Of a DNA stretch of 64,000 bases, positions 26,682 to 43,158 are shown piece by piece. The notes beneath the pieces were generated by a model. The model saw only the letters and a program-made list of their open reading frames with translations, had not been told where the DNA came from and ran no database searches. The DNA is from Albimonas pacifica (GTDB taxonomy: Bacteria > Pseudomonadota > Alphaproteobacteria > Rhodobacterales > Rhodobacteraceae), in assembly GCF_900113695.1 (NCBI RefSeq), contig NZ_FOQH01000007.1, positions 62,001 to 126,000 of the forward strand. The letters run 5' to 3'. How positions within the stretch are numbered: the first letter of the stretch is position 1; each line of letters begins with the position of its first letter. Position numbers and translations under genes: made by a program.

Positions 26682-27336
26682 GGCCGGGGGGCGAAGCCTC
26701 CCCGCGAGAGCGGGGAGGCGCAGGCCCGCAGGCGCCCTGCGGGCGGGCCTGGGCCCGCGGCGAAGGGCGCGCCCGGGCGCCCTGCGTGCGCCTCCCGCGG
26801 AACCGTGGGAGGCGCCGCGTCGACGGTTGCGCCGGCCGCGCGCCCCCGCCCGCGGCGCGGGGCTGGGGGAGCCGCCCGACGCCGGCGTCGAGGCGCCCGC
26901 GGCCAGCCTCGCGCGTGCCCGCCCGCCCTGCGCCGCGGGCGAGTCCTCGCCCCCCGCGCAACCGTCGACGCGGCGCTCCCGCGGCCGCCGGCCTGCGCCG
27001 GCGGCCCGGTCCCGGCCGCCCGCCCCCGGCGCCGCCGCCCGCCCTGCGCCGCGGGCGCCGCCGCCCGCCCTGCGCCGCGCGCGCGGCCTCGCCGCCGGCG
27101 CGCGGGTCGACGCGGCCCCCCCCCCGCCGGCCGGGCCGCAGGCCCCGGCCGCGGCGCCCGGTCGCCGAGCGAAACCATTCCCTCGCTTGGCGCCCTCCCC
27201 GCCCCGGTGCATAATCCGGCGCTTGCGCCCGGTCGGCGCGCCGACGCCCCGCGCCGCCTTCGCGCCCGCGTCCGGCGGCCGCCCGCCGGGATCCGCCAGC
27301 GCGCCCCGGGCCCCGCCAAGCCCTCGAAGGAGATCC
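26682..27336. repeat. 655-bp repeat-filled intergenic region
   Basis: No gene is visible. It begins with a 10-bp hairpin with a GAGA loop (26696-26719), then a second stem-loop (26721-26751) and a third (26788-26815, arms GCGCCTCCC/GGGAGGCGC). A 21-bp word GCGCAACCGTCGACGCGGCGC occurs inverted at 26812-26832 and direct at 26956-26976, both perfect. A 26-bp unit is duplicated in tandem at 27028-27053 and 27054-27079, with a partial copy near 26920-26943. At 26731-26752 lies the reverse complement of a 22-mer also found at 33207-33228 and 39236-39257. The last bases carry GAAGGAG for the gene at 27337. Confidence 0.75.
26696..26719 (+). terminator. Hairpin with GNRA loop after the amidoligase gene
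   Basis: GCCTCCCCGC and GCGGGGAGGC form a perfect 10-bp stem closed by GAGA, 14 bp after the stop codon. There is no T tract. It may end the first transcript or stabilise its 3' end, which would uncouple it from the gene at 27337. Confidence 0.5.
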
Positions 27337-32957: not shown

Positions 32958-33119
32958 GCGCCTGTTCTCCGGAGCCGTCCATCGCGGATGCCGATCGGAG
33001 CGACTCGGGGGGAGCGGTCAAGGATCGCGAAGCGACCGCGCTTGCGCGGCTCGTCCTTGACCGCTCCCCCCGAGTCGCTCAGGCATTCGACGCGATGGAC
33101 GGATCCGGAGGACAGGCGC
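32958..33119. repeat. Long-hairpin dispersed element, copy A
   Basis: This 162-nt element folds back on itself almost end to end. The outer arms GCGCCTGTTCTCCGGA and TCCGGAGGACAGGCGC pair, the middle arms CCGTCCATCGCG and CGCGATGGACGG pair, and the inner arms AGCGACTCG/CGAGTCGCT and GCGGTCAAGGA/TCCTTGACCGC pair. A small side hairpin TCGC-GAA-GCGA and an apical CCGCG-CTTG-CGCGG stem follow. It lies in the 579-bp gap between the oxygenase and the ABC operon, about 145 bp before the sigma-54 promoter. Copy B at 39001 is about 90 percent identical over the element by eye. Confidence 0.85.
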
Positions 33120-33206
33120 GGGCGCCTTGTTCTTGGGTGAGTCCGGAGCCCGCCGGAGGCTCCCCCCTTCCCAATCCCTCGCAAGCCTTCCGGACGCGCC
33201 TCCCCG

Positions 33207-33228
33207 CCAGGCCCGCCCGCAGGGCGCC
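33207..33228. repeat. 22-bp dispersed word next to copy A
   Basis: The 22-mer starting CCAGGCCCGCCCGC (33207-33228) recurs exactly at 39236-39257, just after copy B, and inverted at 26731-26752. In both hairpin copies it sits about 75-90 bp beyond the element and is preceded by CAAGCC, so it may be part of a larger repeated unit. Confidence 0.6.
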
Positions 33229-35595: not shown

Positions 35596-35758
35596 TCCCC
35601 GCCCGCCGCCCGCCCCCGCGCGCAGCGCGCCAGCCGAGCGGGCCCCGCCTCGCGAGGCCCGCCCCGCGCGCCCCGTCCGCCCCGCGCCGCGCGCCCGCCG
35701 CCCGCCCCGGGCGCGAGGCCCGACGCGGCGCCCCCTCCCGTCGCCCGGAGCGCGCCCG

Positions 35759-39000: not shown

Positions 39001-39162
39001 GCGCCTGTTCTCCGGAGCCGTCCATCGCTGATGCCGATCAGAGCGACTCGTCGGGGGCGGTCAAGGATCGCGAAGCGACCGCGCCTGCGCGGCTCGTCCT
39101 TGACCGCCTCCGGCGAGTCGCTCAGGCATCTTCAGCGATGGACGGGTCCGGAGGACAGGCGC
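39001..39162. repeat. Long-hairpin dispersed element, copy B
   Basis: Same length (162 nt) and fold as copy A at 32958. The differences are concentrated in stems and mostly keep pairing. For example, G-C near 32987 in copy A is T-A here (CATCGCTGA/TCAGCGATG), and the inner stem GACTCGTCGGGG pairs with CTCCGGCGAGTC through wobble pairs. It lies between two convergent genes (38960 and 39257), so it may work as a bidirectional transcript end. The 296-bp gap holds nothing else but the 22-mer at 39236. Confidence 0.85.
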
Positions 39163-39256
39163 GGGCCTGTTCTCTGGTGAGCTCCGGAAGCGCCCCTTCG
39201 CGGGCGCCCGCCCGCGCGCGCGGACCGCGCGCAAGCCAGGCCCGCCCGCAGGGCGC

Positions 39257-40078
39257 CTAGCTCCACTTCGCCAGGTATTGCGCGCAGATCTCGCGCATCC
39301 GCTGCTGCCCGAAGCTCAGGTCATGCCCGCCGTGGACGATGGAGACCTCCATGCCCGCCAGCCGCTCCAGCGTGCGCAGGTAGTCCGCCATCACCCCGAT
39401 CGGCAGCAGCGGCCCGTCGTAGATCGCGTCGCCCGAGAACAGCGTCCCGTCCGCCTCGTCCAGCAGCCCGATCCCGCCGGCGGAATGGCCCGGCAGATGC
39501 ACCACCGTGAACCCGCGCGAGCCGAGCTCCACCCGGTCGCCTTCCTCCAGCAGCCCCGTCGCCGGCGCCGCCTTCAGCCGGTAGCCCGAGGGGTCGTAGT
39601 CCGCCGAGGGCCGGGCCGTGACCAGCACGTCGGGCAGCGGGCGATACCCCTCCGCCTCGAACCCGTCGCGCAGCGCCCGGGGGATCTTGTCGCGGAACAG
39701 GGTGGCGAGACCCACGTCCGTGCGCTGCAGGTCCGCCGCCTCGGCCGGGTGGATCAGGCGGCTGTCGAATTCCCACGAGCCGCCCATGTGGTCGATATGC
39801 GCATGGCTCAGGACATGGACCAGCGGTTTCGAGGCGTCGCGCAGCCCGTCCACGAAGGGCGCGAGCAGCCCCACCCCCATGCCGCTGTCGATCAGCATGT
39901 CGCGCTCGGAGCCCTCGACCAGCCACAGGTTCGCCTGCAGCAGCGGGTCGAGATGCGGCTCGACGATCTTGGTCACGCCCGGCGCCACGCGCTCGGCCGT
40001 CCACCAGTCCGCCACGGGCAGCGCGCGGGCGCGCGCGCGGACCTCGGCGCCCACGGGATCGAGGGCCGGATCGCTCAT
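39257..40078 (-). CDS. MBL-fold metallo-hydrolase
   Basis: This 273-residue metallo-beta-lactamase-fold hydrolase has the metal motifs [10 protein letters not shown] (His92, His94, Asp96, His97), [10 protein letters not shown] (His), FSGDAIY (Asp) and VHGGHD (His). The family covers glyoxalase II-like, lactonase and thioesterase activities; nothing here fixes the substrate. The ATG overlaps the ubiG stop codon by three bases (ATGA), so it is coupled to ubiG. Confidence 0.88.
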
Positions 40079-42814: not shown

Positions 42815-42900
42815 GGATATCTCCTACAGGGGACGCAGCCACCCTGCCCCGCGAGGCGCCCCCAAGCCAACCCGCGCCGAAGCGCAACGTCGCGGAGAGG

Positions 42901-42976
42901 CGAGTCGGGCCGCGGGTCAAGGCTCGCGAAGCGACCCGGCGAAGCCGGGCTCGGCCTTGAGGCGCGGGCCGACTCG
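42901..42976. repeat. Long-hairpin dispersed element, diverged core (copy C)
   Basis: Only the core is kept: outer arms CGAGTCGG/CCGACTCG, then TCAAGGC/GCCTTGA, the side hairpin TCGCGAAGCGACC, and an apical CCCGGC-GAA-GCCGGG followed by GGCTCG. Against copies A and B an A-T pair has become C-G (GGATCG/CGTCC to GGCTCG/CGGCC) and the apical stem is fully replaced with pairing kept. It lies in the 344-bp gap 42815-43158, which otherwise holds a 7-bp hairpin at 42993-43009 and the diverged word near 43099-43160. Confidence 0.7.
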
Positions 42977-43158
42977 TCGCACGCTCGCCAGAGGCCGGCC
43001 CTGCCGGCCGTCTCAGCAGAGGGCGGAAATCCCGACCCCGGCGATGCCTTCGCCTTCCCTGCCGACCCTCGCCAAAGGAAACGGCGCCCATAGGCGCACC
43101 CCCCGCAACGCGCCGCGCGCCGGACGCCCACCACAGGCGCGACGCCGGCCGCGGCGCC

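Follow-up and report, generated by a model that had tools for sequence, protein, structure and literature searches.

The palindrome described here is the tip of a large repeat family in the genome of Albimonas pacifica. It was noticed in a 64,000-nt stretch of DNA (the window) in two copies of 162 nt, A (32958-33119) and B (39001-39162), both on the + strand, the strand that reads TCGCGAAGCGA first, and in a third form, C. The initial annotation ascribed to them one long hairpin with a side loop and inferred selection for structure, be it of a REP/BIME-like mobile element or of a structured RNA. We find that the repeat is multicopy, intergenic and palindromic, that its pairing is kept with a one-strand polarity while the letters change, and that its presence differs between sister species. 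Moreover, the apical part of the hairpin is common to non-orthologous copies. The repeat is probably a dispersed, non-coding and non-autonomous intergenic repeat of REP/ERIC-like type that depends on its fold. With more than 100 paralogs per genome, in which pairing is kept while the letters are replaced, it constitutes a natural experiment, and orthologous pairs in two sister species allow the timing of stem replacement. The spread of a repeat family without known transposase and selection on single-stranded DNA versus RNA thereby become testable.

The coordinates given for A and B proved exact. Both copies start with GCGCCTGTTCTCCGGAG and finish with its near-complement. In A, a palindrome of the long form (type II) and the query of our genome searches, a hypervariable 8-nt block on the 5' side (GGGGGAGC, 33008-33015) is the exact reverse complement of its partner on the 3' side (GCTCCCCC, 33063-33070). 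Between the blocks lies a conserved stem of GGTCAAGGA (33016-33024) paired with TCCTTGACC (33054-33062), and this stem encloses the apical hairpin 1 (TCGCGAAGCGA, GNA triloop, 33025-33035), the apical hairpin 2 with its swappable stem (33036-33049) and the unpaired junction CTYG (33050-33053). The long hairpin of the initial annotation thus stands, but its side loop TCGCGAAGCGA forms a small hairpin of 4 bp capped by a GAA triloop. Since the side loop is hairpin 1, the apex is a three-way junction, completed by the second hairpin and the unpaired CTYG. Plain minimum-energy folds of A and B pair the apex otherwise, without hairpin 1, and the junction rests on comparison. The left end of A (GCGCCTGTTCT, 32958-32968) recurs as the right direct repeat CGCCTTGTTCT (33123-33133), a deletion or insertion junction, and the sister species is without the hairpin between these repeats. 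The right-end box of A (GCCAGGCCCGCCCGCAGGGCGCC, 33206-33228) closes the conserved part of the 107-copy consensus. Hence 162 nt is the length of the palindrome and not that of the repeat, which extends some 30-45 nt leftward and, rightward, to the box GCCAGGCCCGCCCGCAGGGCGCC ending about 95-110 nt away. Copy B, likewise of type II and on the + strand, lies at a place that is also occupied in the sister species; its right-end box, read from the sequence, is at 39235-39257. Its 5' variable block (TCGGGGGC, 39051-39058) is paired with 39106-39113 at six of eight positions, so that pairing in B is imperfect. Folding gave z = -14.8 for A as DNA and z = -14.9 for B as RNA. As in MITEs, terminal inverted repeats are present, with outer arms of 29 nt (93% complementary) in A and 31 nt (94%) in B; these arms are the ends of the hairpin and are unproven as ends of the whole unit.

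Copy C is related, as had been claimed, but it belongs to a shorter subfamily (type I) with a second hairpin of its own. Its core, again a three-way-junction hairpin, occupies 42897-42981 on the + strand and is followed by the second hairpin (42990-43013) and by the 3' motif TCTCAGCA (43011-43018); most of 29 sequences have a comparable motif after their second hairpin. The sister species has core, linker and second hairpin in conserved form at the corresponding position, and the flanks diverge. Folding of C together with the following hairpin gave z = -3.2 as RNA. All three compensatory changes named in the initial annotation are real: G-C to T-A next to TCGC between A and B, A-T to C-G next to TCAAGG between A or B and C, and the swapped but paired apical stem in C.

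The host genome (6.02 Mb, 68 contigs) carries many further copies. The grounds on which the initial annotation would have been refuted thus fail, as there is also covariation beyond that of shuffled alignments and a bias in position. In a blastn search of this genome with A, the best 40 of 199 candidates all match at 86-100% identity and nearly full length. The pattern GGTCAAGGNTCGCGAAGCGA, allowing up to three mismatches, finds 67 + 86 = 153 matches, as compared to 2 + 1 = 3 for a reversed-pattern control. In 110 stretches around matches (30 loci from blastn and 80 chosen by place), nhmmer distinguishes 111 separate places, 107 of them full-length. The total is thus 107 verified full-length copies, or about 150 by pattern, and the sister species Albimonas sp. 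CAU 1670 (G001) has about as many, with at least 149 covariance-model matches among its best 150 candidates, some of which are the opposite strand of one place. A. donghaensis DSM 17890 (G002), the other genome of the genus, has four covariance-model matches. The palindrome sits within a repeat unit of about 300 nt. Its consensus from 107 copies begins with a GC-rich left part and reads gAGCGCCTGTTCtCCGGAGCCGTCc.TCGC ... GAGCGACTCG, the 8-nt block and GGTCAAGGA in the 5' half; hairpin 1 as TCGCG(A/C)AGCGA, hairpin 2 and CTYG in the apex; TCCTTGACC, the complementary block and CGAGTCGCTC ... GCGA.gGACGG..cCGGaG.aCAGGCGC in the 3' half; and the tail TGTTCttgGGTGAGTc followed by the right box GCCaaGCCCGCCCgCaGGGCGCC at the right end. 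CTYG occurs in 106 of 107 copies, a count in which the parse required it in 103 copies and in which it was seen in three of the four unparsed ones; one copy has CCTG.

Keeping of the structure is strongly supported. Covariation was scored on 44 sequences, namely C and 43 copies, one per distinct block, a choice that favours variety. The score was 0.284 versus 0.070 (sd 0.007) for shuffled alignments and 0.044-0.088 for slid partners; 96.9% of cells are paired versus 35-46% for slid partners, and 19 pairs have changed on both sides. In 102 of the 107 copies the 8-bp blocks could be compared directly. They show 40 distinct 5' blocks, and 79 copies are exactly complementary, against a permuted mean of 7.7 and a maximum of 17 (2000 permutations); 788 of 816 block pairs are paired, against a permuted mean of 436.5 and a maximum of 500. 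By a slightly different parse, blocks are exactly complementary in 76 of 103 copies. Hairpin 2 exists in 25 versions in these 102 copies and is self-complementary in 101, with loops that are mostly GAA, TT or GCA; it is replaced wholesale and its self-complementarity is retained. Blocks and hairpin 2 are found in many combinations. These pairing counts are not independent events, because the copies are related and apical cassettes are exchanged. Hairpin 1 is almost invariant in Albimonas and has different but complementary stems in other genera. Between genera hairpin 2 and even the 'conserved' stem change complementarily as well; in one genome (G006) the latter has gone from GTCAAGG/CCTTGAC to GTCAACC/GGTTGAC.

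The remaining mismatches are polar. Among 5657 stem positions in the 107 copies, counted outside the internal loop, 5433 are Watson-Crick. Without a strand favoured by selection or mutation, G.T should equal A.C, and G.G should equal C.C. We counted 115 G.T (20 sites) versus 4 A.C (4 sites; p = 0.0015 on sites) and 38 G.G (14 sites) versus 2 C.C (2 sites; p = 0.004 on sites); 47 of the 115 G.T come from one common site. The comparison of A.G (52 at 6 sites) with C.T (11 at 4 sites) is not significant on sites (p = 0.75), and A.A and T.T occur once each. A C-to-T mutation bias on one strand could explain the G.T excess but not the G.G excess. The polarity therefore argues that the fold of one strand is kept, that reading TCGCGAAGCGA first. 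Among 25 sequences from other genera, in an alignment fitted to the model and with nine opposite-strand duplicates of type I left out, 493 of 590 main-stem pairs are Watson-Crick, and the polarity goes in the same direction for G.G (37 at 7 sites versus 1 C.C) and, more weakly, for G.T (24 at 14 sites versus 16 A.C at 7); there is none for A.G (6) versus C.T (8), and T.T and A.A number three and two.

A model search of the kind that the initial annotation had proposed yielded relatives in 14 other genera besides the many copies here. With the core model R1, at least 15 of 149 genomes of the family have matches at E <= 1e-3, that is Albimonas and these 14 genera; as strict filters were used on the best 30 candidates per genome, the number is a lower bound, and the E-values are rough. 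Among the best 150 candidates at E <= 0.01 on both strands, there were 30 matches in G076, eight in G006, four in G124, two in G022 and one in G003. G022 has long Albimonas-like copies (L160, L176). Most other genera, and A. donghaensis, have type I, in which the three-way-junction hairpin is followed after about 15 nt by a second hairpin with a variable stem and by a motif like CTCAGCA. In G076 a right end about 155 nt after the core is common to many copies. By automatic parse, hairpin 1 comes directly or 1-2 nt after the conserved stem in 28 of 30 short-form or other-genera sequences, the exceptions being L177 (no hairpin 1) and L228 (mis-anchored). It has 16 distinct sequences among 29 parsed, the mis-anchored one included. 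The second hairpin is found in nearly all parsed sequences, and CTTG follows in 14 of 29. A separate repeated hairpin with a loop like GGGTGGGCGGGTGGG, possibly a G-quadruplex, lies to the right of the type I core before the right-hand gene at five loci in four genomes (L160, L167, L182, L186, L187).

A positional bias is present. Gene calls came from a home-made periodic Markov gene finder, whose gene structure for a part of the window looked plausible. None of 106 assessable copies lies within a called gene; four further copies have no gene on one side inside the stretch. Relative to the element, neighbours are convergent in 37, ++ in 36, -- in 23 and divergent in 10 cases, and in 73 of 106 copies the gene on the left has its end at the element. 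Divergent gaps are thus under-represented as compared to element-free gaps drawn from the same stretches and the window (29 of 85 gaps of at least 100 nt, p = 5e-5; 16 of 45 gaps of at least 200 nt, p = 2.5e-4), a position near gene 3' ends such as REP and BIME sequences have. A neighbourhood skew test, which is crude, gave no significant replication-strand bias (p = 0.13); the skew of a copy's own locus does correlate with orientation (p ~1e-14), but since it also reflects the direction of genes and the flanks of the element itself, it was set aside. In other genera (24 of 25 loci, L166 left out), neighbours are +- in 12, -- in nine, ++ in three and -+ in none. There the right neighbour is on the - strand in 21 of 24, and in 17 of 24 loci no more than 20 nt separate the core's left end from the left gene.

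From this context it is quite possible, if on the whole unlikely, that the repeat is transcribed and acts as an RNA element at the 3' ends of genes and between cistrons, i.e. as a terminator, mRNA stabiliser or processing site whose fold works in the mRNA. The excess of left neighbours ending at the element and the scarcity of divergent gaps would fit, as would the G.U-type mismatches on one strand. Likewise, type I elements are found near stop codons or between co-directional genes, including BetB/BetA-like pairs. However, the constant-direction neighbour of type I is the right one, on the - strand, i.e. the opposite strand. Furthermore, the mismatch rate is 0.0240 when the left gene points in (73 copies) and 0.0264 when it points away (32 copies; p = 0.57), with two common mismatch sites and two copies without context left out, and the polarity is the same (G.T:A.C 43:3 versus 23:1). 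This independence from left-gene direction counts against a simple role in mRNA and in favour of a step that every copy shares. Four genomes have the element immediately before a BetA-like gene (L167, L182, L165/L260, L263), where the 'Bet' names are a reading of N- and C-termini. A general bet-operon function was rejected, since the element is found at only two of 30 betA loci, picked by similarity to one BetA, and both belong to these four genomes. The recurrence looks like retention or function at one place. Separately, in genomes where betA has no element in front of it (L237, L238, L240, L249), the region upstream of this gene repeatedly carries CCCGCCGGAGGC preceded by AT-rich sequence, and the Albimonas tail bears a similar CCCGCCGGAGGC.

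Comparison with the sister species shows where the two genomes differ in hairpins. In synteny between the window and C3 of G001, B and C are present in both genomes. A is filled here and hairpin-less in G001, where GCGCCTGTTCT abuts TTGGTGAG. The G001 copy 66896-67084 is without counterpart at window 35622-35642, and the G001 copy 75410-75649 corresponds to window 26776-27148, which is without hairpin; the latter may be a hairpin loss, because the right-end box (window 26731-26752, - strand) is present in both genomes. Around these two places, window 35606-35740 is GC-rich and palindromic, lies between genes for ABC transporters and matches stretches of G001 next to element copies; it looks like a tail-side module of the element minus the hairpin. 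In window 26731-27148, the place of a type II copy in G001, GC-rich DNA containing strong inverted repeats comes after the right-end box. Of the compared loci, four have the hairpin in the host genome and are hairpin-less in G001 (A, L003/L193, L100/L196, L145/L194), and the reverse case is L208/L229, with synteny on one side only. In aligned loci a direct repeat of CCTGTTCT type marks the limits of the part that is missing, and the outer shell stays. Such a boundary is as expected from slippage across the hairpin; an insertion with duplication would look alike. In L208 the right box is missing too, which speaks for a full unit that has decayed. No locus without the whole unit and with a clean target duplication was found among those compared. 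Since hairpin-less loci keep the outer shell, we only infer mobility, from copy number and species differences.

If the repeat is indeed of the fold-dependent REP/ERIC-like kind, the + strand would have to fold in single-stranded form, as ssDNA or RNA, for the element to be copied or kept. The machinery would recognise the fold together with a small set of constant motifs (in Albimonas GGTCAAGG, CTYG and the ends), and the sequence of the variable block and of hairpin 2 would not matter to it. Block and hairpin 2 may then change as cassettes through recombination between copies, and copies would probably lose their hairpin through slippage from one short flanking direct repeat to the other. 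Less in keeping with this reading are the weaker polarity in other genera, the recurrence before BetA-like genes, the lack of a significant replication-strand bias and the one ortholog pair of eight whose outer part is less ortholog-like than its core. A bolder proposal, which we regard as rather doubtful, is a mobile family whose identity is the fold itself: a machinery would copy one single strand via the polar three-way junction, with the apical stems as free exchangeable cassettes, and the family would have spread through the Rhodobacteraceae independently of RAYT.

Cassette exchange itself is apparent at eight loci that are filled in both species. There the 8-nt block differs in eight of eight and hairpin 2 in seven of eight, with exactly complementary blocks in 11 of 16 copies. 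Ranked among 101 parsed host copies by outer stems and 60 nt of tail, the true ortholog comes at positions 1, 5, 80, 9, 10, 26, 9 and 9; ranked by apical core, in the same locus order, it comes at 13, 48, 23, 35, 70, 77, 65 and 38. L198/L151 is the exception, with an outer part less ortholog-like than its core. One sister-species core, in a copy fetched for its high model score, is identical to that of a non-orthologous host copy; three G001 copies of the eight (L221, L223, L235) were fetched in this way, which favours cores like those of the host. Because the core is closer to other copies than to its ortholog, the 'compensatory' change is in part a swap of apical cassettes. The common cores and the many combinations of blocks and hairpin 2 would also be expected if there were no selection on the fold and the arms matched through template-switch correction or gene conversion of whole apical cassettes. 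We consider this improbable: correction yields perfect arms, not an excess of G.T over A.C or of G.G over C.C, for the second of which a C-to-T bias would not account either, and between genera both apical hairpins and the 'conserved' stem change complementarily.

A REP/REPIN family of the usual kind, mobilised by a RAYT (Y1) transposase, would share the high copy number, the intergenic palindromes and the gene-3'-end bias (PMC3733652, in the part available), but is very improbable, since no GTAG, CGTC or GGAG tag lies within 6 nt of either foot in any of 107 type II copies, the palindromes of A and B measure 162 nt where that of a REP has 20-40 bp, and Y1_Tnp (PF01797, RAYT/IS200) has no match at E <= 1e-5 (four candidates scored) in the host genome, which with G001 has the most copies of the genomes searched. 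RAYT mobilisation in this genome is accordingly disfavoured. Y1_Tnp, the one transposase family covered by our search, was found in 15 of the 149 genomes, which include four of the 15 genomes that carry the element (G124, G125, G152, G159), against an expectation of about 1.5.

Rfam gave no match at gathering thresholds in the window and, at E <= 1 for six loci, three matches, all in L175 and all sub-threshold. No match to the element was found in plasmid and phage collections. One exact 22-base match in viral contigs, where only a 29-nt stretch resembles the family model, was treated as chance. Judged by title and the start of the abstract, no paper on this element was found in a literature search that had most subscription journals outside its scope.

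REPs are described in the available part of PMC3733652 as intergenic palindromes of high copy number with a bias to gene 3' ends and variable stems, and in all of this the element is like the REP, BIME and REPIN sequences of the GTAG and CGTC super-families. It differs from them as a long hairpin with a three-way junction, without tag and without a Y1 transposase found in its genome, and its short form has a second hairpin. The label 'REP/BIME-like' is thus apt for the resemblance and fails for tag, size and transposase: by resemblance the element is a dispersed palindrome of REP/BIME/ERIC type, by membership it is not a REP. The Albimonas repeat is a further, structurally richer case in the same bacterial class. 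ERIC or IRU sequences (127 bp) and other MITE-like intergenic palindromes are imperfect and dispersed palindromes as well. Likened by description and not by sequence, ERIC is an imperfect palindrome of similar length, dispersed and intergenic, but belongs to other taxa, and neither a three-way junction nor swapping stems are known among its features. Integron attC sites are recognised through the fold of one strand and have a variable centre. In these two respects the element resembles them, whereas no integron core site was recognised by eye in it. New here are the polar three-way junction, the replacement of whole stems with pairing retained, the swapping of these stems among copies, and the presence of related forms across further genera of the family.
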